Assembly: GCA_036268875.1 (NCBI GenBank)
Contig: DATATI010000031.1
Coordinates: forward strand, 1 to 46,622
Reading direction: 5' to 3'
From: Polyangia bacterium
Lineage (GTDB): Bacteria > Myxococcota_A > Polyangia > Fen-1088
Length of the DNA: 46,622 bases
Position numbers and translations under genes: made by a program. Positions 2,034 through 34,371 of the stretch are shown here, piece by piece. The notes below the pieces were generated by a model that saw nothing but the letters and a program-made list of their open reading frames with translations, was not told the DNA's origin and searched no databases. Every line of letters begins with the position of its first letter. Positions within the stretch are counted from its first letter, which is position 1.

Positions 2034-5000
2034 TTGAATAAATTAAGCGCGTGTCGGTTGTCGGTTGGGATCTGGGTGGCGACGCTGGTGCTGGCTGCTG
2101 CGACGGTCAGCTGCACCAATAGCACGCCCCCCAACCAGAACGGCCGTGGGCCGACCGACGGTTCGGCCGACGGAAGCAAAAAAGACGGCGGCGCCGACGT
2201 GGCCTGCCTGACGGCGGCCGCCCCGCGCAAGACCCTGGGGACGGTCTGCGCCTGCGACGGTGATTGCGACAGCGGATTTTGCGTCGACGGGGTCTGTTGC
2301 GCATCGGCCTGCCAGGACAACTGCAAGGCCTGCAATGTCCCCGGCATGATGGGCACCTGCGCCTTCGTCCCCACTGGTATCAAACCGCGCAGCGCCGCCA
2401 CCTGCGCGGCGTCGCCGATGGCCAGCTGTGGACAGGACGGCACCTGCGACGGCAGCGGCGCCTGTCGGCAGTACCAGGCAGGCACGGTCTGCCTGGCCGG
2501 CACCTGCGATGGGGCGGCCGTCAGCGGCATCAACGTCTGTAATGGCTCCGGTCGCTGCGTGCCCGGCAGCTTGAAGATTTGCGTGCCGTACACCTGCAAC
2601 CAGGCGCAGAAGGATTGCGCGTCGGCCTGCACGACCAGCGCCGACTGCTCGACGGGCCACACCTGCGTGAATGGAAGCTGTGGACCCAAGCCAAAAGGCG
2701 CGGTCTGCACCAAAGATGACGACTGCGAGCTCGGCAATTGCTATGACGGCGTCTGCTGCGAATCCACCTGCAAAGGCGCCTGCGTGTCCTGTAATCTGGT
2801 TGGCCACGAAGGCAGCTGCTGGCCGATCGCCGTCGGCCTGGCCGATCCGCGCGGCGTCTGCAAGGACGGCGGCCCCGCCAGCTGCGGGCAGACCGGCTCG
2901 TGCGATGGCGAAGGCAACTGCGACAAGTACTCGCGCGGGACCGTCTGCTCGCCGCCGATCTGTTCGGGTGACCGACTGCTGACGGCGGCCACCTGCGACG
3001 GGCAAGGCGCCTGCAGCCCGCCCGACGTGAACGACTGCCCGCCCTACCGCTGCATCAACGGCAGCTGCAAAGTCCCCTGCACCGCCGACACCGACTGCCA
3101 GCCCGGCCACGCCTGCGTGAACGGAAGCTGCGGACCCAAACAGCCGGGCCAGGTTTGCGCCGCCAACACTGAATGCGCGTCCAACTTCTGCGTCGACGGC
3201 GTCTGCTGCGACCAGGCCTGCACCGGCGCCTGCCGCAGCTGCTCGCTGCCGTCGTCGAAGGGCCGCTGCACCAACCTGCCGGACGGCGCCGCCGATTCGC
3301 GCAACATGTGCAAGGACATGGGCGCGCCGAGCTGCAAGACCGACGGCCGCTGCGACGGCGGCGGCGCCTGCCGCCGGTACAAGACCGGCACGCCTTGCGC
3401 CAACGAATCCTGCAGCGGCAACGTCTACACGCCGGGTTCGACCTGCGACAACAACGGCAACTGCGCGGCGCCCATGTCGCGTTCGTGCGCGCCCTTCGCC
3501 TGCAACGGCAACAAGTGCTTTGACGCCTGCACGCAGGACGGAAACTGCGTGCCGCCCAACGTCTGCAACGGCAACTCGTGCGGCAAGAAGATGCCGGGCG
3601 CCTCGTGCAACAACAACACGGAGTGCCTGTCTAACTTCTGCGCGCAGGGCGTCTGCTGCGGCACCGCCTGCGCCGGACCGTGCAAGTCGTGCGCGCTCAC
3701 CAACTCGCAGGGCACCTGCACCAACGTCCCGACTGGTCAGCCCGACACCACCAAGACCTGCGTCGACCAGGGCGGCGCCACCTGCGGCACCAACGGCAAG
3801 TGCCAAGGCGGCGGCTGCCAGAAGTACGCTGCCGGAACGTCGTGCAAGGATCCCACCTGTCCGGCCAACACCACCAACTTCACCCCGCGCGCGACCTGCG
3901 ACGGCGGCGGCAACTGCGTGACGCCCGCGGCGTCGTCGTGTGTGCCGTTCAAGTGCGGCACCGCCGCCTGCAAGGCGACCTGTGCCGCCGACGCCGACTG
4001 CTCAGCCGGCAACGTCTGCACCAACGGGTCGTGCGGCCTGAAGCCGGCAGGCGCCACCTGTTCCATCAACGGCGAGTGCTCGGCCGGTCAGTGCGCGCAA
4101 GGCGTCTGCTGCAACAGCGCCTGCAACACCGCTTGCGTATCGTGCAACCAAGCCGGCAACGTCGGCACGTGCAAGCCGCTGGCGGCGAACACCTCCGACA
4201 GCCGCTGCGTCGACACCGGCGCCCCCAGCTGCGGCACCAACGGCAAGTGCGACGGCAACGGCGCCTGCCAGAAGTACGCGGCCGGCACCCAGTGCGTGCC
4301 GCCGTCGTGCCCGGCCGGCACGTCGACGAAGACCCTGGCCAAGACCTGCAACGGCACGGGCGCCTGCGCGAACGGCGGTACCACCACCAGCTGCGGCACC
4401 TTCCTGTGCAACGGCACCAACGATTGCATCAACAACTGCCGCACCACCGCCGACTGCGTAGTGCCGAACCTGTGCGATCCGAAGAACAACCTGTGCGGCA
4501 GCCGCCAGCCCGCCGGTGGGAACTGCACCACCGGTAACGACTGCCAGACCGGTCTGTTCTGCACCGACGGCGTCTGCTGCAACTCGAATTCGTGCGGCAC
4601 CTGCGCGGCGTGCAACGTGGCCGGCAGCCGGGGCAACTGCACCAACCTGCCCGCCGGCACCGACGAGCCGCACGGCGCGTGCCCGGCGCAAAGTCCGCTG
4701 GTCTGCGGCCAGACCGGCGCGTGCAACGGCATGGGCGCCTGCAGCAGCGTCGCCGGCGGCACCGCCTGCGGAACCGCCGGCTGCGCCAACGGCTCGTTCA
4801 CCCCGCGCGGCATGTGTACCGGCGGCGGTGCCTGCACGCAGAACGCGGTCGACTGCCACGGGCTGGTCTGCGATCCCACCACTGGATGCAAGGCCAGCTG
4901 CACCACGAACGCCGACTGCACCGGCGGTCTCATCTGCAATCTCGACGGCACCTGCGGCGCCAAGAAAGCGAACGGCGTATCGTGCAACGCCGCTGGCAAC

Positions 5001-5834
5001 GGCAGCGACTGCCAGAGCGGCCACTGCGTTGGTGGCGTCTGCTGCGGCAGCGCCTCCTGCCCCACCTGCCAGAGCTGCAGCACCGGTACCTGCGCGGCGG
5101 TCGCCACCGATCCGGCCTGCACCGATCAGGGCGCCGCCAGTTGCGGCACCAGCGGCTGCAACAACGGCGTGTGCGGCACCTACCCGAACGGCACCATGTG
5201 CGGCGGCACCGGCGCCAGCTGCAACAACAACGTCCTCACCAAGGCCGCCACCTGCATGAACATGTCGTGCATGGCGCAGACCCAGGACTGCATGGCCAAG
5301 ATCTGCGACGCCGGCATGGCGGCTTGCCGCAACTGCGCCCCCGGCACCGACTGCGGTTTGCGGATCTGCGATCCGAATGGCATGTGCCGTGACTGCAACA
5401 ACAACACCGATTGCGGCGGCAAGATCTGCAGCGGCGGTTCGTGCCAGAAGTGCACCAGCGACGGCGCTTGCGGCGGCAAGATTTGCGGCACCGACGGCAC
5501 GTGCCACAACTGCATGCAGATGGAGTGCGGCGCCAAGGTTTGTAAGAACGACGGCACCTGCCAAGACTGCGCGAACACCGCTCAATGCGGCGGCCAGATC
5601 TGCGACACAGGTTCGTGCCGCGCTTGCAACCCCCAGACCGCCGATTGCGGCAACCAGATTTGTGACACCGGTTCGGGCATGTGCCGCAAGTGCACGCAGG
5701 CCGATTGCGACCCCCAGATCTGCGACAGCGGAACCGGCGCCTGCCGCGCCTGCACCCAGGCCGACTGCGACGCCTCGGGGATGATCTGCACGGGCGGGCA
5801 GTGCATGCCGCCCCCGCCGCCGCCAGTGGATTGA
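2034..5834 (+). CDS. Very large cysteine-repeat lipoprotein
   Basis: A 1266-residue exported protein. It opens with a basic, then hydrophobic signal segment ending ATVSC (lipobox-like, with Thr where Leu is usual), followed by an Asp/Gly/Ser-rich linker. The body contains seven repeats of about 150-156 residues, each marked by C-x-x-G-V-C-C (six with D/Q before GVCC), and ends with about nine shorter units of the type GGKICxxGxCxxC and a Pro tail. I chose the TTG at 2034 because GGGGAG at 2022-2027 lies 6 bases upstream; the in-frame TTG at 2007 lacks such a site. Similar Cys-repeat proteins of unknown function are common in Myxococcota, where a surface or outer-membrane location with structural disulfides is assumed. 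The stop codon overlaps the start of the next gene. Confidence 0.85.
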   Translation: MNKLSACRLSVGIWVATLVLAAATVSCTNSTPPNQNGRGPTDGSADGSKKDGGADVACLTAAAPRKTLGTVCACDGDCDSGFCVDGVCCASACQDNCKACNVPGMMGTCAFVPTGIKPRSAATCAASPMASCGQDGTCDGSGACRQYQAGTVCLAGTCDGAAVSGINVCNGSGRCVPGSLKICVPYTCNQAQKDCASACTTSADCSTGHTCVNGSCGPKPKGAVCTKDDDCELGNCYDGVCCESTCKGACVSCNLVGHEGSCWPIAVGLADPRGVCKDGGPASCGQTGSCDGEGNCDKYSRGTVCSPPICSGDRLLTAATCDGQGACSPPDVNDCPPYRCINGSCKVPCTADTDCQPGHACVNGSCGPKQPGQVCAANTECASNFCVDGVCCDQACTGACRSCSLPSSKGRCTNLPDGAADSRNMCKDMGAPSCKTDGRCDGGGACRRYKTGTPCANESCSGNVYTPGSTCDNNGNCAAPMSRSCAPFACNGNKCFDACTQDGNCVPPNVCNGNSCGKKMPGASCNNNTECLSNFCAQGVCCGTACAGPCKSCALTNSQGTCTNVPTGQPDTTKTCVDQGGATCGTNGKCQGGGCQKYAAGTSCKDPTCPANTTNFTPRATCDGGGNCVTPAASSCVPFKCGTAACKATCAADADCSAGNVCTNGSCGLKPAGATCSINGECSAGQCAQGVCCNSACNTACVSCNQAGNVGTCKPLAANTSDSRCVDTGAPSCGTNGKCDGNGACQKYAAGTQCVPPSCPAGTSTKTLAKTCNGTGACANGGTTTSCGTFLCNGTNDCINNCRTTADCVVPNLCDPKNNLCGSRQPAGGNCTTGNDCQTGLFCTDGVCCNSNSCGTCAACNVAGSRGNCTNLPAGTDEPHGACPAQSPLVCGQTGACNGMGACSSVAGGTACGTAGCANGSFTPRGMCTGGGACTQNAVDCHGLVCDPTTGCKASCTTNADCTGGLICNLDGTCGAKKANGVSCNAAGNGSDCQSGHCVGGVCCGSASCPTCQSCSTGTCAAVATDPACTDQGAASCGTSGCNNGVCGTYPNGTMCGGTGASCNNNVLTKAATCMNMSCMAQTQDCMAKICDAGMAACRNCAPGTDCGLRICDPNGMCRDCNNNTDCGGKICSGGSCQKCTSDGACGGKICGTDGTCHNCMQMECGAKVCKNDGTCQDCANTAQCGGQICDTGSCRACNPQTADCGNQICDTGSGMCRKCTQADCDPQICDSGTGACRACTQADCDASGMICTGGQCMPPPPPPVD
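2240..5290 (+). repeat. Seven tandem coding repeats of about 450-470 bp
   Basis: The landmark coding for GVCC recurs near 2290, 2750, 3198, 3648, 4100, 4569 and 5033, giving spacings of about 460, 449, 450, 452, 469 and 465 bases. The units differ at many sites but keep the cysteine spacing, which indicates old internal duplication with selection on the protein. From about 5300 the pattern changes to short units of about 48-60 bases. Confidence 0.8.
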
Positions 5835-16069: not shown

Positions 16070-17545
16070 ATGGGAGTTATGTATTCGCTCGCACGCTTAA
16101 CTTGGGTTGTCTGCATCGCGCTGACCCTGGGGTCATGTGGGCAGCGGACCAACCCCGCCTATGTCGGTGCGGCACCGGTCGACAGCGGCAGTTCTGATCT
16201 GTCCCCCGCCGTCGACGGCCAGGGTGATGGCGGCAGCATCCGCGGCTGTTCGCTGCCCCTGCTTATGTGCAGCGGTGATTGCGTCGACCTGCAATCCAGC
16301 AGCGCTCATTGCGGCGCGTGCGACACTGTCTGCTCCCCTGACAAGATCTGTTCGCAAGGAACGTGCGTGTGCGACGCCGCGCAAACCCTGTGTGATGACA
16401 CCTGCATCGATCTCCTCAAGAGCGCCGCCCACTGTGGTGACTGCGACACGGCGTGCACCGACGCCATGGTTTGTTCGCAGGGCGCGTGCGCGATCAGCTG
16501 CACCGACCCGCTGGTCAATTGCAGCGGCAGTTGCGTGGACCAGCAATCCGACAGCATGAACTGCGGCGCCTGCGGCAACGCCTGTCCGTCGGCCATGGAG
16601 TGCGCTTCTGGCACCTGTTTCTGCACCGATGGCCTCACCAACTGCAGTGGGCACTGTTTCAACCTGGACACCAACAAGAGCAATTGCGGCGCCTGCGGCA
16701 ACGTCTGCCCCAGCAGCCAGCAATGCTTGGTGGGCAAGTGCGAGCTGAAGTGCTCGACGGGCCTGACCAACTGTTCGGGCTCGTGCGTGGATCTCAAGTC
16801 CAGCGGCGGAAACTGCGGCGCCTGCGGCGTGGCCTGCACCGGCGGCGCGGTCTGCTCCGGCGGCACGTGCGTTTGCCCGAACGGCGGCCTGCGCTGTAGC
16901 GGCGTCTGCATCGATCCCAGCACCGATCACGCCAACTGCGGCGGCTGCGGCAACAAGTGCAGCAGCAGCAATCCCGTGCAGGCCTGCGAGCAGAGCATGT
17001 GCCAGGCGTTCTGCAGTCAGGGCCTGACTCTTTGTGGCGGCTCCTGCATCGACCTTCAATCCAGCAGCAAGAACTGCGGCGGCTGCGGCCTGGTGTGTTC
17101 GGGGGGCACGACCTGCACGGCCGGCAAATGCACCTGTCCGAACGGCCTGACGAAATGCGGTTCGCAGTGTCTGGACACCACCACCAACCAGAGCAACTGT
17201 GGCACCTGTGGAAACGTTTGCAGCACAGGCAATGTGTGCTCGCACGGCACGTGCGTGAAGAGTTGCGGCAACGACCTCACCCCGTGCGGCAACACCTGCG
17301 TCGACACCACCACGAACTTCAACAACTGCGGCGGCTGCGGATTGTCGTGCTCGGCGAATCAGACATGTGACAACAGCCAGTGCCGCTGCAACCAAGGGCT
17401 GGACGCTTGCGGCGACGTTTGCGTCAACCTGAAGACCAACGGCGCCCACTGTGGCGCGTGCGGGACCGCCTGCTTGCTGCACGCCTTGTGCTTGAACGGC
17501 AAATGCGTCGTCGCGGGCCTTGGCACCGACGGCAACGGCAACTGA
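16070..17545 (+). CDS. Cysteine-repeat lipoprotein of the LTxCxGxCVDL...NCGxCGxxC type
   Basis: A 491-residue lipoprotein. The signal peptide ends in a textbook lipobox, LGSC, followed by a short polar linker. The rest consists of about ten repeats of about 40 residues with the consensus C-x-x-G-L-T-x-C-x-G-x-C-V-D-L-x(5)-N-C-G-x-C-G-x-x-C-x(4)-C-x-x-G-x-C. I recall this pattern from Myxococcota cysteine-rich proteins of the MXAN_6577-like group, with no known function. The cysteine density suggests a chain of small disulfide-bonded modules at the outer membrane surface. ATG codons at 16070 and 16079 are both possible; GGGAG between them is too close to the second, so I use the first. An upstream in-frame GTG at 16037 would give an awkward N-terminus. 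The gene ends 14 bases from the convergent alpha-E gene. Confidence 0.85.
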   Translation: MGVMYSLARLTWVVCIALTLGSCGQRTNPAYVGAAPVDSGSSDLSPAVDGQGDGGSIRGCSLPLLMCSGDCVDLQSSSAHCGACDTVCSPDKICSQGTCVCDAAQTLCDDTCIDLLKSAAHCGDCDTACTDAMVCSQGACAISCTDPLVNCSGSCVDQQSDSMNCGACGNACPSAMECASGTCFCTDGLTNCSGHCFNLDTNKSNCGACGNVCPSSQQCLVGKCELKCSTGLTNCSGSCVDLKSSGGNCGACGVACTGGAVCSGGTCVCPNGGLRCSGVCIDPSTDHANCGGCGNKCSSSNPVQACEQSMCQAFCSQGLTLCGGSCIDLQSSSKNCGGCGLVCSGGTTCTAGKCTCPNGLTKCGSQCLDTTTNQSNCGTCGNVCSTGNVCSHGTCVKSCGNDLTPCGNTCVDTTTNFNNCGGCGLSCSANQTCDNSQCRCNQGLDACGDVCVNLKTNGAHCGACGTACLLHALCLNGKCVVAGLGTDGNGN

Positions 17546-27661: not shown

Positions 27662-30600
27662 TCAGCGACGCCGGCGGCGACGAACACTGACGACGACGCC
27701 CAGAAGCAAAACCCCCAGCGCAGCAGGCGCTGCCGGATCACCATCGGCTCCCATCGCGCACTGACAGCCGCCGCCGGCCAGGTTCAAAGCGCGGGTGCCG
27801 ATGCCGGCGTCGCCGTAGGCGGTGTCGTTTCCGCCGTCGTTAAGCTGGCCGCTACCGTCGGCGTGGCTGCCGTCTTTGCCGGTGGTGGCGTCGCCGCCCG
27901 TGGTGCTGTCCTTGCCGCTGCCGTCGCCGAGGGCGTCGCCGCTGCCGGCGCCGTCGCGCCCGTCGCCGGAGGTGTCACCGCTGCCGTCTTTGCCGGTTCC
28001 GTCGGTCACCGCGCCGTCACCGCTCGCACCGTCGCCCGCTGAACCGTTGCCGTCGCGTCCGTCGCCGCCGTTGCCGTCGGCTGACGAGGCGTCCTTGCCG
28101 TCGACCCCGCCGTCCATGCCGGCTTTGCACTGCCCGGCGCGGGCGTCGCCCGAGGTGCACACCAGATCAGTCGGGCATCCGTTGCCGCTTTGTCCACGGC
28201 AGCCGATGGTGCACTTGTGTAGCGTCCCGTCGCAGATGCGGCCCGACGTGGCGCCGCCGCAGTCACCGTCGCTGCTGCAGCCGCAGCTGCCGCCGGTCAG
28301 ACAGGCGCTGCCGCTGCCGGTCGGCAGGCAGGCGGTGGTGTTGGTAGGCGTACACTCGACGCAGGCGTGCGCGGTCGGCGAGCACACCAGCGGCAGCGCG
28401 CAGCCGGCGTCGCTCAAACACTGCACGCACTGGTGCGGGGTGACGCTGGTGTTGCACGCGGTGGTCGGCAGCACGCAGTCTCCGTCGATGCTGCAGCCGC
28501 CGGTGGGGCTGCAGGTGCCGACGCCGCCGCTGACGTCGCTGCAGGTCTGGCCGACCGGGCACCCGTTGCGTCCGCTGGCGGCGCTGCAGCCGGGCACGCA
28601 GATCCCGGCCGGCCCGTTGCAGATCAGGCCCGCCGTCTTGCCACCGCAATCGCCGTCGCCGTTGACGTTCGAGCAGCCGCAAAGACCGATGCTGACCAGA
28701 CAGGCCGGCTTGTCGGCGCCGCACAACTGCAGGTGCAGGGCGGTGCATTCGGTGCACGCGCCGGCCAGCGGGCCGCTCGGTTGACAGTACGGGCGCGCCG
28801 GATCAGCGCAGCTGGGCGCGCCGTCAGCCGTGCACGGGAGACAGGTGTGCGTGGCCGTCGAACAGAACGGCGTCGGCCCGGAGCAATCACTGTTGGCCAG
28901 GCAGCCGACGCAATTTCCGCCGTCCGCCACGTCGCAGACCGACCGGTCGGCCGGGCAGGCTGACTTGTTGGTGGCCGTGCACTGACCGCACGAACCAGCG
29001 GGCAAGCACACCGGCGTGGTGCCGCCGCACTCGCCGTCGCCGGCGCAGCCGCGGCAGGCCTTGCTGGTGCCGTCGCAGATCGGTTTGCTGCCGGGACAAC
29101 CGGCGCTGCTGAGGCAACCCACGCACGAATCGGTGCTGGTGTCGCAGACGCCTTTGGGTGAGGCGCAGGCGCCGATGTTGCCGGCGGTGCATTCGTGACA
29201 CGCGCCGCTGGGCGTGCACACGGGGTCGCCCGCTGCACAGTCGCCCGCGCCGCTGCAGGCGCGGCAGCTTTTGCCGGCATCGTCGCAGATCGGTTTGTCG
29301 CCGGCACAGTCGCTGTTGGCCAGGCAACCGACACAGACCACGTTGACGATGTCACAGAAGGTGGTGGCCCCCGTGCAAGCCGTCCGGTTGGTAGACGAGC
29401 AGACGCCGCAAGCGCCGGTCGATAGCTGACAGGCCGGCGTGGGGCCGCCGCAGTCGCTGTCGCCGCTGCAGGGCCGGCACATGTGCGTGCCCAGATTGCA
29501 GACCGGCGCGTTGCCGGCGCATTCGCCGTTGTCGACGCAGGCGACGCAGGTGCCGCTGCCCACGTCGCACACCGACGCGCCGACCATATTGCAGGCGAGG
29601 CTGTCGTTGGCCGAGCACTGCCCGCAGGCGCCGCTCGGCTGGCAGGCGGGCAGGGCGCCGCCGCAGTCGCTGTTGCCGACGCAGCCGCCGCAGGTCTTCA
29701 ACAGCGGATCGCACACCGGCGTGGTGCCGCCGCAGTCGGCGCCGGTCAAACAACCGACGCAGGCGTGGCTGGCGGTGTCGCACTTGGGCGCGCTGCCGCC
29801 GCAGGTGCCGTCGTCGACGCACTCGACGCAGGTGTCGTGGTCGACGTCGCAGGCCGGCTTGGAATTTCCACAGTGGGTCTTGTCGGTCGCCGTGCACTCG
29901 ACGCAGGTGCCGGCGCCGGCCACGCACACCGGGGTGGCGGCGGAGCAGTCGGTGCTGGCCGCCGGAGCGCAGGCGCGGCACATGTGCGTGCTGCCATCGC
30001 AGGTCGGCGCGGCGCCGCTGCAGTCGGTGCCGGCGCGGCAGCCGATGCAGATCTTCGGCGACGCGCTGGTCAGACAGAAGGGCGTCGGGCCGCTGCAGTC
30101 ACTGTCCTGGCCGCACTTGTCGACGGTGATCGGCGTGGGCGCGGGCATCCCCGCGCCGCCCCCGTTGTTGGTCAGGTAATCGGTGGCCGGCGCGCCCGCC
30201 GCGCCCGAGGCATTGATGATGGCCTGGTTCTCGATGCGCCCGGCGGCTGACGAATCGACGGTGGCCTTGAAGACGACGATGCTGGATTGTCCGATGGGGA
30301 CGGTGCCACCTTTGGTGTTGTTGGCGCCGGTGCCCAGGCGCACGCGCACGGTGCGGCTGGCGGCGATGTACTCGCCCTGGTCGGCGTCGGCGGCGTCGGT
30401 CTTGGTCCCCACGTTGGCGCCGGTGGTGACCTGAATCGAACCCGGCACGAAGGTCAGGCTGGCCGGCACGGCGTCGGTCAGCACGACGTTGGTGGCGTCG
30501 TCGTTGCCTTCGTTCAGCGCGGTGATGGTGTATTGAATGACGTCGCCGGGAAAAACCAGCCCGCCCGGGTGGACGGTCAGATCGGTGACCGCCTTGTTCA

Positions 30601-31753
30601 CGTTGCCAAAGTCCGGCTTGAACGTGGCGACGGAGGTGATCCAGGCGCCCAGCAGATAAAAGTCTTGATTGGTCGAGGCGGTGATGGTGGCCGCGGTGTC
30701 ACCCTGGTGCAGTTCAGCGCTGATGTCGACGACGTCCAGATCGAAGCTGCTCATGCTGTTGGCGGCGCCGGTGAGCTGCGGTAGATCGCCGGCGTTCGAC
30801 ACCGGCACGCCCAGGTTCGATCGGCTGGAGTTGAAAAAGTTGTTGGCCGGGTTCACCGCGTCCGACAGCGCCACGCCGTTGAACGACAGTGAATCGCCGG
30901 GCAGCGTGTTGTCGCCTTCGTAGGCGACCACGCCCAGCTTGGCCTTGAAGCCGGTGTTGGGGACGACGAAGCCTGACAGGTTGACCGTGACGGCCGCGCC
31001 TTGCGAGACGATGGTGTCCAGGCCGTCGAAGATGGTCAGGTTGCGCTGCGGATCGCTGTCCAGTTGATAGAAGACGACCATCGCCCAGGCGATGTACACC
31101 GTGTCCGAACTGAGATTGATGAGCGACAGCGAGTCGATGCCGCCGATGCGGTAGGCACCCACGCCGTGCGCCTGCACCTGCGCGGTGATCTCCGCGGTCG
31201 ATTGATAGTAGTTGGTGGCGTTCGCCGTGGTGGTGGCGGGCGTGGCGTCGGCGGTGACGGGGAACGAGAAGGCGCCGGTGCCGACGCGATCGAGGGTGAC
31301 GGTGGTCTTGTCGCCGCCGCCCGCGGCGGAGCTCCAGTAAAGCCGCGCGTAGGTGATGGTGGCGCCCGCGGGCACGGATAGCACCGCAGTGCTGCGCGCC
31401 TGGGAGGCGGTGATGGCGGTCGAGGCGGCGGCGGTGTGGTTGGCGTCGTCGGAGCGCCAGTAGATGTCGGGCGCGGTGTCGCTGGTGTTGTTGCCGCAGG
31501 CGCCTTTGGTGCCCACCACCGCCCCCGGCACGTTGTTGCCGCAGTCCTGACCGACGGTGTTGCCGATGAGCACGAAGTCGCCGCGCTGATCGACCTGGAA
31601 TCGTTTCGTCACGGCGTCGGCACGGCCGCCGCCGATCACCAGCGCGGCCGCCAGACACAATCCGCCGGCGAGCAAACGACCACGTCCGAAAAGCCAACGC
31701 GAACGCCGGCGGTCACGGCCAGGCCGCCCGATGATGAAGGTGCCTATTTTCAC
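27662..31753 (-). CDS. Large Cys-repeat surface protein with DUF11-type domain and MYXO-CTERM sorting signal
   Basis: A 1363-residue exported protein. A signal peptide lies at about residues 26-46. Residues about 48-375 form a beta-rich N-terminal domain (for example ITYARLYWSSA and SLSLINLSSDTVYIAWAMVV) that I cannot assign firmly. Residues about 385-530 resemble the DUF11/conserved-repeat domain (DVIQYTITALNEGNDDATNVV). Residues about 543-1205 are repeats of the type DCGGxxPVCDxxxxxCxxC. A Gly/Asp/Lys/Ser linker of about 110 residues follows, then GGGCQC, one hydrophobic helix and six arginines: the tripartite MYXO-CTERM signal that myxosortase-type proteases process for surface display. 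The GTG at 31753 has AGGG 4 bases upstream. It converges with the chitosanase gene. The role may be adhesion or cell-surface structure; no enzyme motif is seen. Confidence 0.85.
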   Translation of the reverse strand: MKIGTFIIGRPGRDRRRSRWLFGRGRLLAGGLCLAAALVIGGGRADAVTKRFQVDQRGDFVLIGNTVGQDCGNNVPGAVVGTKGACGNNTSDTAPDIYWRSDDANHTAAASTAITASQARSTAVLSVPAGATITYARLYWSSAAGGGDKTTVTLDRVGTGAFSFPVTADATPATTTANATNYYQSTAEITAQVQAHGVGAYRIGGIDSLSLINLSSDTVYIAWAMVVFYQLDSDPQRNLTIFDGLDTIVSQGAAVTVNLSGFVVPNTGFKAKLGVVAYEGDNTLPGDSLSFNGVALSDAVNPANNFFNSSRSNLGVPVSNAGDLPQLTGAANSMSSFDLDVVDISAELHQGDTAATITASTNQDFYLLGAWITSVATFKPDFGNVNKAVTDLTVHPGGLVFPGDVIQYTITALNEGNDDATNVVLTDAVPASLTFVPGSIQVTTGANVGTKTDAADADQGEYIAASRTVRVRLGTGANNTKGGTVPIGQSSIVVFKATVDSSAAGRIENQAIINASGAAGAPATDYLTNNGGGAGMPAPTPITVDKCGQDSDCSGPTPFCLTSASPKICIGCRAGTDCSGAAPTCDGSTHMCRACAPAASTDCSAATPVCVAGAGTCVECTATDKTHCGNSKPACDVDHDTCVECVDDGTCGGSAPKCDTASHACVGCLTGADCGGTTPVCDPLLKTCGGCVGNSDCGGALPACQPSGACGQCSANDSLACNMVGASVCDVGSGTCVACVDNGECAGNAPVCNLGTHMCRPCSGDSDCGGPTPACQLSTGACGVCSSTNRTACTGATTFCDIVNVVCVGCLANSDCAGDKPICDDAGKSCRACSGAGDCAAGDPVCTPSGACHECTAGNIGACASPKGVCDTSTDSCVGCLSSAGCPGSKPICDGTSKACRGCAGDGECGGTTPVCLPAGSCGQCTATNKSACPADRSVCDVADGGNCVGCLANSDCSGPTPFCSTATHTCLPCTADGAPSCADPARPYCQPSGPLAGACTECTALHLQLCGADKPACLVSIGLCGCSNVNGDGDCGGKTAGLICNGPAGICVPGCSAASGRNGCPVGQTCSDVSGGVGTCSPTGGCSIDGDCVLPTTACNTSVTPHQCVQCLSDAGCALPLVCSPTAHACVECTPTNTTACLPTGSGSACLTGGSCGCSSDGDCGGATSGRICDGTLHKCTIGCRGQSGNGCPTDLVCTSGDARAGQCKAGMDGGVDGKDASSADGNGGDGRDGNGSAGDGASGDGAVTDGTGKDGSGDTSGDGRDGAGSGDALGDGSGKDSTTGGDATTGKDGSHADGSGQLNDGGNDTAYGDAGIGTRALNLAGGGCQCAMGADGDPAAPAALGVLLLGVVVSVRRRRRR

Positions 31754-32378: not shown

Positions 32379-32463
32379 GGGCGCATTGTAACGCACTCGC
32401 AACGGGCGTCCTGAATCCCCATTGGCCGAAACAAACCAGCTGACACGGCATCAAACGGCCTTG

Positions 32464-33270
32464 ATGACCAGCAACTCGAAAATGCCGGTGGTCTACCTTC
32501 CCCACGGCGGTGGCCCGTGGCCTTTTGTCGAGGTTGGCTTCGACAAGAAAGAAATGTCCCGGCTGGCGACGTACCTGCGGTCTCTGCAAGCGCTGCCACA
32601 CACACCGCCGAAGGCGATCCTGGCCGTGTCCGCGCACTGGGAAGAGCCGGTGCCGACAGTGATGACCGCCGAACACCCGCCGATGCTTTACGACTATTAC
32701 GGCTTCCCGCCGCAGTCGTATCAGATCACCTGGCCCGCGCCCGGCAGCCCGGCGGTGGCGGCGCGCGTGCAGCAGCTGCTGGAAAGTGCCGGCCTTCCCA
32801 GCGCGCGCGATGGGCAGCGCGGGTTCGACCACGGAACATTCGTCCCGCTCAAGCTGGCCTACCCGGCCGCTGACGTGCCAACGGTGCAACTGTCATTGAA
32901 GCGCGGGCTCGATCCGAAAGAGCACCTCGACATCGGACGCGCGCTGGCCCCACTGCGCAATGAAGGCGTCTTCATCATCGGCAGCGGCATGAGCTTTCAC
33001 AACCTGAGCGCCTTCGGCGATCCGCGGGCGCCTGCCATCGCCGCCCGGTTCGACGCCTGGCTGACCGAAACCGCCACCGCCGAGGCCCCACACCGCGACC
33101 GCCGCCTGACCGAATGGTCAGCCGCACCGGCCGCCCGCCAGGCCCACCCGCGCGAAGAGCACCTGCTGCCGTTGATGGTGGCCGCCGGCGCCGCCGGCAC
33201 CGATCGCGGCGTGACCGGTTTCGCCGACACTGTGATGGGTGTGCGGGTGTCGGCGTTTCACTTCGGGTAG
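32464..33270 (+). CDS. LigB/DODA-family class III extradiol dioxygenase-like protein
   Basis: A 268-residue cytoplasmic protein of the group that includes plant DOPA 4,5-dioxygenase and bacterial YgiD. Metal and active-site histidines are in place: H14 in YLPHGGGP, H58 in AVSAHWEEP, H123 in FDHGTFVPL and H179 in SGMSFHNL, with a further HPREEHLLPL motif near the C-terminus. The family opens catechol rings with non-haem iron, or binds zinc. Its native substrate here is unknown. The ATG at 32464 is preferred over a TTG at 32422; the family-conserved sequence starts at residue 7. It is divergent from the FMN reductase gene. The 180-bp palindrome lies just beyond its stop. Confidence 0.85.
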   Translation: MTSNSKMPVVYLPHGGGPWPFVEVGFDKKEMSRLATYLRSLQALPHTPPKAILAVSAHWEEPVPTVMTAEHPPMLYDYYGFPPQSYQITWPAPGSPAVAARVQQLLESAGLPSARDGQRGFDHGTFVPLKLAYPAADVPTVQLSLKRGLDPKEHLDIGRALAPLRNEGVFIIGSGMSFHNLSAFGDPRAPAIAARFDAWLTETATAEAPHRDRRLTEWSAAPAARQAHPREEHLLPLMVAAGAAGTDRGVTGFADTVMGVRVSAFHFG

Positions 33271-33299
33271 AGCGTTTTCAGGGTCACTTCTCCCAAGGC

Positions 33300-33479
33300 G
33301 ATCCGGTTACGCGCGGGGCGAAGGTCAGCAACTCGATTGAGGGGCGGCTTTCGCGCGTTTGCTCTCCTCTGACGAGGAGCGCTCTTAACGGATCCAAAAA
33401 GGGCGCTCCACCAGGAGCGCAAACGCGCGAAAGCCGCCCTCCAATCGGTTGCTGACCTTCGCCTCGCGCGTAACGGGTC
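33300..33479. repeat. 180-bp near-palindrome (long inverted repeat) between convergent genes
   Basis: The left arm from 33300 and the reverse complement of the right arm to 33479 align over about 68 columns with roughly 90 percent identity by hand, including identical blocks of 16 (ggcgaaggtcagcaac) and 21 bases (starting gggcggctttcgcgcg). Pairing continues with gaps to a central GGATCC at 33390-33395. No target-site duplication is visible. It could be a MITE-like or palindromic repeat family, or a very large bidirectional terminator: it starts 30 bases after one stop codon and ends 4 bases before the stop codon of the convergent gene. Confidence 0.85.
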
Positions 33480-33483
33480 TGCC

Positions 33484-34371
33484 CTACTTCAGCGGGATGA
33501 AACGCTTCTGGCGCATCCACTTCGTCACCACCCACTTTTCGCCGGCGGCGACGGGACCGCCGGCGTGCAGCGACTGTTCCTCGAGCTGGCCGCGGCTGTC
33601 GGTGTTTTCGAAGTAGACGGCGTGACCGGCGCGCGGGGTGATCGACCAGCCGCCGCGGGGAAAGATGGTCTCGCCGCCCGCCGCGACGTCGTTCAGATAA
33701 CAAAGCAGCGTGCTGGTTCGCTGGCCGCTGCGCGCGATCGACGCCTGATTGGCGGCGTTCGAAGGAAGCAGAAAATCAAAGTGCGGCGCGGTGGCGCCGC
33801 CCGCGCTGTAGCACAGAACCTGCAAGCTCTCGCCGTTCTCCAGCGGTTGGTTCATCACCTCGGAGAAACGACGGTCCAGGCGATCGATGAACGCGGTCTC
33901 GCCCAGACGAAAGAACATGCCCTGGCTGTTGCGGTAGCCGGCGACGACGTCAAGGCCGGACTGCGGATCGACCACCGTCGACGGCGCCAGGCGCGGGCGC
34001 GCCAGTGCGATCAGCTGGTCGCACTCGACGGCAGACAGCAGATCACCCAGCAACGCCAGGCAGGGACGTTCGGCGCGGGCCAGCACGCGCACCGACGAGC
34101 CGTCGGTGGTGGTCAGCCGCGCGGTCGAGCGCAGGCGCGATACCTGCGGGCGAAATGCCGGCGCGCCGTCGACCACCACGGTGTCGGTGGGCGCCGGGCG
34201 ACCATCGCGGCGGGCGCGCACGAAGGCCGCGACGATCGCGTCGGCCACCGCGGGCTGCATGTGTTCGGCCACCATGGTCTGAGCCAGCGCCGACGGCGGC
34301 AGGCCCTGGTCCAGGCGTTCAGTCAACCACGCGCTCAGCTCGGGACGAAAACGAACGATGGATGCGCTCAT
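33484..34371 (-). CDS. 2-oxoglutarate/Fe(II) oxygenase, prolyl 4-hydroxylase-like
   Basis: A 295-residue soluble protein. The C-terminal half is a P4Hc-type double-stranded beta-helix with the iron ligands H197 and D199 (TAPHFDF) and H269 (QSLHAGGPV), and the 2-oxoglutarate-binding K279 (GEKWVVTKW). GGETIFPRGG before the last ligand is also typical. Family members hydroxylate proline or other residues in proteins, or free substrates. The N-terminal 100 residues form a helical region of unknown function. The ATG at 34371 overlaps the previous stop in ATGA. As the last gene of a four-gene operon it is the only member without an export signal, so it would act in the cytoplasm, perhaps before export of a partner; that is inference. 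Confidence 0.88.
   Translation of the reverse strand: MSASIVRFRPELSAWLTERLDQGLPPSALAQTMVAEHMQPAVADAIVAAFVRARRDGRPAPTDTVVVDGAPAFRPQVSRLRSTARLTTTDGSSVRVLARAERPCLALLGDLLSAVECDQLIALARPRLAPSTVVDPQSGLDVVAGYRNSQGMFFRLGETAFIDRLDRRFSEVMNQPLENGESLQVLCYSAGGATAPHFDFLLPSNAANQASIARSGQRTSTLLCYLNDVAAGGETIFPRGGWSITPRAGHAVYFENTDSRGQLEEQSLHAGGPVAAGEKWVVTKWMRQKRFIPLK

Follow-up and report, generated by a model that had tools for sequence, protein, structure and literature searches.

A nearly end-to-end palindromic MITE family associated with terminator-like hairpins in a Polyangia genome, and its probable relationship to Tn5-like transposases

The long palindrome situated between two convergent genes in the window analyzed here (a stretch of 46,622 nucleotides from a Polyangia bacterium) belongs to a family of short mobile elements. 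The assignment of these elements as non-autonomous DNA transposons (MITEs) is well supported: they are ~246 bp in length, form a palindrome over nearly their whole length and have no coding function. The family is unnamed and is a new one of an already known kind. We consider it highly probable that the overall explanation for these palindromes is that of a MITE which is moved in trans by a Tn5-like transposase, inserts into terminator-like targets and possibly acts as a two-way terminator. The copy in the window itself is probably an old, tip-less and immobile fossil, and the case for its mobility rests on family membership because neither a tip nor a target duplication is present there.

A sequence-only reading of the window had described a 180-bp palindrome at 33300-33479. 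This segment does fold as a single hairpin of -146.5 kcal/mol, compared with -69.7 +/- 4.3 for 200 shuffled sequences (z = -18), and the expectation that it would be among the strongest hairpins in the window was surpassed, as it ranked first of the 1549 180-nt stretches in a fold scan (-144.7 versus -112.8 for the runner-up). The likeness of the two arms was confirmed, although the earlier value of about 90% identity was slightly generous, since 71 of 84 positions (85%) are identical when gaps are included. The exact blocks of 21 (33342-33362 and 33419-33439) and 16 (33317-33332 and 33448-33463) are just as they had been described, and there is a third exact block with a length of 10. The GGATCC at which the arms were said to meet is present, slightly to the right of the dyad centre. 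That the two strands give similar peptides, which had been taken as a sign of mobility, is a trivial effect of dyad symmetry, and this argument was dropped. Homology to the rest of the family starts ~18 bp to the left of 33300, and the element occupies 197 of the 213 bp that separate the facing stop codons of its neighbors (Table 1). This intergenic space is convergent, in agreement with the earlier reading, because the genes on either side end at 33270 (+) and 33484 (-). Elsewhere the window encodes large proteins with cysteine-rich tandem repeats (2076-5834, 16079-17545, and 27662-31753), the last of which has a weak match to TraA and a C-terminal MYXO-CTERM sorting domain, a domain that suggests an origin in Myxococcota.

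Table 1. Features of the palindromic element in the window and of its neighboring genes.
Feature	Position	Strand	Remarks
MITE remnant	33282..33478	.	95% identity to family consensus, positions 8-206 of 233
Left arm (left terminal-repeat remnant), GGTCACTTCTCCCAAGGCGATCCGGTTACGCGCGGGGCGAAGGTCAGCAAC...	33282..33341	+	outermost tip CTCATGATT lost or unrecognizable
Conserved core	33342..33440	.	diverged form also in genus g2 (G001, G007)
Inner hairpin GCTCTCCTC-TGAC-GAGGAGCGC, then TCTTAAC	33361..33382	+	terminator-like by eye
GGATCC	33390..33395	.	beside dyad centre
Inner hairpin GCGCTCCTGGTGGAGCGC, then CCTTTTTGG	33403..33420	-	terminator-like; terminator scan
Right arm remnant	33441..33478	-	ends at ACGGGT; outer ~30 bp of terminal repeat replaced by end of convergent gene
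Upstream neighbor, LigB-type / 4,5-DOPA extradiol dioxygenase-like gene	32461..33270	+	stop codon 11 bp before element
Downstream neighbor, 2OG-Fe(II) oxygenase gene	33484..34371	-	stop codon 5 bp after element

Far from being a single copy without relatives, the element is present, whole or in part, at 23 loci in its own genome (G000; 6.15 Mb in 95 contigs), with E-values for the copies outside the window of down to 1e-64. These loci are on C31 (the window), C1, C83, C14 (two), C59, C29 (two), C79 (two), C87, C50, C21, C88 (two), C34, C66 (two), C55, C39, C7, and C53, along with one element that is split over the ends of two contigs, C74 and C69, which have 59 identical bp of core in common. 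Full-length copies are present alongside many that have a single arm or only the core; one-armed copies are to be expected, as long palindromes tend to lose one arm. Diverged cores were identified in two genomes (G001 and G007) of the sister genus g2, and a covariance model of the core, when searched against 240 genomes of the class, had matches in G000, G001, and G007 only. There was no match to the element in plasmids, phages or IMG/VR, and a search with the arm pattern gave three isolated matches in unrelated genomes, none of them in Geobacter. No reading frame is conserved among the copies. The only known Rfam family to be matched was MIR1858 (71.6 bits versus a gathering score of 137), which we rejected as a generic match to a long hairpin. 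The solo outer arm at G000:C39:1-145 is broken by unrelated sequence that begins with GAGGCTGTCC and continues to the contig end; this may be one end of a different insertion sequence. We also considered the solo arms on C55 and C39 as ends of a longer element; the former lies between two genes, the latter meets a contig end, and no transposase was seen at either.

The consensus of the family has the order tip CTCATGATTGGTCAC, an arm with the conserved block CCCGTTACGCGCGGGGCGAAGG, a variable block, the core TTTCGCGCGTTTGCGCTCCTCTGACGAGGAGCGCTCTTTAACGGATCCAAAAAAGGGCGCTCCGCCAGGAGCGCAAACGCGCGAAA, and the other arm. The better-preserved copies have tips CTCAYSATTRGTCAC, and a 15-nt tip search gave 41 matches at up to two mismatches, versus 11 for the reversed control; all matches with no or one mismatch are in copies of the family. 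Facing tips of this type are present in four elements, C29a (246 bp), C79b (166 bp), the more diverged C50 (218 bp), and the split C74/C69. The span between tips is thus 166-246 bp, below 500 bp as for a MITE. In three of these four copies with both tips recognizable there are 8-bp direct repeats at the predicted place: the octamers flanking the tips agree at 8/8 positions in C29a and in C74/C69 (GCGGGAGG in both) and at 7/8 in C79b, for which the chance expectations per copy are 4.5e-5 (8/8) and 1.1e-3 (at least 7/8). The fourth copy, C50, has no repeat (1/8). The intact CTCAYSATTRGTCAC-tipped copies would have been inserted by a cut-and-paste mechanism with duplication of 8 bp of target. One property counts against our explanation: conservation is higher in the core than in the tips, whereas a young MITE family would show the opposite pattern. 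Pairwise identities among copies are 85-95% for the core and 59-87% for the arms.

The target of the element could be reconstructed from C29a. When its flanks are joined with a single copy of the 8 bp they form a perfect hairpin, GCGGGAGGGGCC AGCA GGCCCCTTCCGC, and an element-free match to the joined flanks, with 98% identity across the junction, is located at C79:241458-241503. This empty site is paralogous rather than orthologous. Related hairpins are found at C15, C1:132701-132744, C34:49276-49318, C66:128196-128239, and C83:231215-231258. A search of the genome with a model of the target hairpin had 19 matches at E <= 1, a number that includes the split sites, which had been used to train the model, and counts two sites twice, once per strand; about 15 of these are element-free. 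Most of the matches are within ~20 bp of a stop codon and are therefore likely to be terminators or REP-like repeats. As a side observation, the hairpin TGGGCCCGCGGGAGGG...CCCTCCCGCGYAGCGA recurs beside stop codons, for example at C79:241456-241503, where it may be a terminator or REP-like and is the element's target; GCGGGAGGGGCCAGCAGGCCCCTTCCGC is an example of the type. Insertion of the element breaks one arm of the target hairpin. The duplications, together with the restored element-free hairpin, indicate that the MITE inserted into terminator-like hairpins at the 3' ends of genes. The exact empty site, the several similar ones and the bias to gene ends all support a terminator-like hairpin as the target, the preferred form of which would be a hairpin just beyond the stop codon. 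Overall, these elements are short, multi-copy and non-coding, with terminal inverted repeats, a target duplication and a paralogous empty site, as expected of a MITE. The proposal of the sequence-only reading that this was a mobile palindromic repeat is therefore supported by the copies, target duplications and empty site that a search for further copies has provided.

The location of target hairpins just past stop codons is expected to bring copies to the 3' ends of genes and very often between convergent genes. Consistent with this, 12 of the 21 copies whose gene context could be scored are between convergent genes, nine are between tandem genes and none are between divergent genes, compared with 5 convergent, 67 tandem, and 14 divergent background pairs in the fetched DNA, with genes called by a simple codon-usage caller (binomial P for the convergent excess of about 3e-10 by pairs, on a small background sample of 86 pairs). 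The same distribution, with a majority of convergent and no divergent locations, would also be expected if the element were a functional bidirectional terminator kept between convergent genes by selection, with its repetition being secondary. In keeping with such a role are the extreme stability of the hairpin and the presence in the core, the best conserved part, of hairpins with a T tract behind them on each strand. The minus-strand hairpin with CCTTTTTGG was the one terminator found by the scan, versus 0.4 expected in shuffled sequences; the plus-strand hairpin is followed by TCTTAAC (consensus TCTTTAAC), which is too T-poor for the scan. With its two hairpins placed back to back, each trailed by a short T tract, the core could plausibly act as a bidirectional terminator on sequence grounds, and its hairpins may serve both neighboring genes in this way. 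However, the arms of one copy pair no better than arms swapped between copies (0.807 within versus 0.813 across copies, with 3158 of 5000 permutations reaching the observed value), and the same is true of the core (0.895 versus 0.901). There is consequently no sign of compensatory change among the nine full-length copies compared, a sample in which weak selection would escape. In addition, nine copies are between tandem genes, many are one-armed, and insertion into pre-existing terminators alone accounts for the location. We therefore think it unlikely that selection for termination is the primary explanation for this family, and favor that of a MITE with terminator-like targets.

It is likely that this MITE is mobilized by a transposase of the IS4 family, most likely of its IS50 (Tn5-like) subgroup and acting in trans, based on the tips, the length of the duplication and a relative with matching tips. 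According to its published description (PMC2266710), the IS50 subgroup has 8-9 bp direct repeats and ends with the signature CW------Y---CA-A--W-. Of the seven positions specified, all are present in CTCACCATTAGTCACATTTT-type tips and six in those of the CTCATGATTGGTCACTTCT type, and the 8-bp duplication of the element falls within the range of the subgroup. In the relative, G009, the tip CTCACGATTAGTCACATTC (exact tip CTCACGATTAGTCAC) is located 54 bp before the beginning of a reading frame for a Tn5-like transposase, which matches PF14706 (E 2e-17), the IS4 family of NCBIfam (E 2e-31) and structures of the Tn5 transposase (E 2e-15); 14-17 of the 22 tip positions match. A search for a transposase with the same ends was thus successful in part, as this Tn5-like element is decayed, and the Tn5-like insertion sequences in the element's own genome, on C94 and C61, have tips that are related but not identical (for C94, CTCAGTATTACCCACATTTTT, with 12-15 of 22 positions matching the MITE tips). 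In the own genome, transposases were sought in the fetched loci and in ~0.9 Mb of sequence taken from contig starts and small contigs. A complete autonomous element sharing the tips of the MITE was not found, the copy in G009 being truncated and the own-genome elements having differing tips, and a tip search of the own assembly with up to two mismatches at both tips returned only the known copies as facing pairs.

The C94 insertion sequence (G000:C94:2292-4196) is complete, with 1590 bp and a 476-codon frame, and next to it comes a 178-bp palindrome (-99 kcal/mol), after which a second, direct copy of the insertion sequence begins; since the outer flanks have no target duplication, the contig may be a collapsed repeat. 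The other Tn5-like insertion sequence (G000:C61:1-1496) is at a contig start and has perfect 22-bp terminal repeats with CTAGGGCATGCACACATCT.

A family of intergenic palindromes at the 3' ends of genes is also what has been described for REPs (PMC3733652), and the elements might accordingly be REP/BIME-type palindromes moved by a REP-associated tyrosine (Y1) transposase. We regard this as very improbable, as there were no matches to Y1_Tnp (PF01797) in G000 in a search that was positive in 5 of 14 controls, and the element is ~246 bp in length rather than 20-40. It also has terminal repeats and 8-bp target duplications, which Y1 elements are not known to make. That the palindrome arose by chance, or by a private duplication of one flank, is practically discounted by its z-score of -18 and the 23 related loci.

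With respect to the Tn5-like system, a second palindrome was identified in another genus (G006). It has 240 bp, a folding energy of -219 kcal/mol and the tip CTCATGATTCGTCAC (CTCATGATTCGTCACATCTC), and is situated at four contig ends, including G006:C101:1-240. Its interior is by eye unrelated to the window family, while its tips are the same, which indicates that one kind of tip has been combined with different palindromes in separate genera, in each case at the ends of genes. In both the G006 palindromes and the G009 element, a gene reads towards the tip and its stop codon lies 9-15 bp before the tip begins. A tentative idea is that a Tn5-related system of this bacterial family homes to terminators past stop codons and repeatedly makes giant palindromic mini-elements, with two interiors in two genera, whose own two-way terminator would replace the one destroyed on insertion, giving a safe haven by repair.

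These analyses provide a MITE family with its tips, target duplication, target site, and probable transposase lineage, and suggest that, by inserting into terminator hairpins, the Tn5-like elements of this bacterial family avoid causing damage. Should both convergent neighbors regain termination through the element, mobile DNA would supply a basic transcription signal many times within one genome; beyond this possible supply of terminators, its biology is ordinary genome ecology.

Among known systems, the closest counterparts are type II MITEs, such as Chunjie of Geobacter uraniireducens (178-235 bp) and QMITE2 of Coxiella (~190 bp; PMC10969869). As in these, the elements are short, non-coding, intergenic and hairpin-forming, with terminal inverted repeats, many truncated copies, target duplications in the younger copies, and only their tips in common with autonomous elements. 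Unlike them, the family is palindromic over nearly its full length rather than only at tips of 4-30 bp, is G+C-rich and not A+T-rich, has a core more conserved than its tips, and is tied to terminator-like hairpins. The comparison with Chunjie is by description, and the arm pattern had no Geobacter match. The tip signature, the 8-bp direct repeats and the Tn5-like transposase inside a matching tip in G009 are shared with the IS50 subgroup of the IS4 family, whose members differ in that the MITE has no transposase and an interior without similarity to an insertion sequence. REP/BIME palindromes are likewise mostly between convergent and tandem genes and near stop codons (PMC3733652), but the MITE is ten times longer, has tens and not hundreds of copies, makes target duplications and has no Y1 transposase; it is the target hairpin, rather than the element, that resembles a REP or terminator. 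Finally, the Rickettsia palindromic elements (PMC10969869) are also mobile and palindromic, 100-200 bp long and dispersed within a single lineage, although those are in frame within genes, whereas the family in the window lies between genes.
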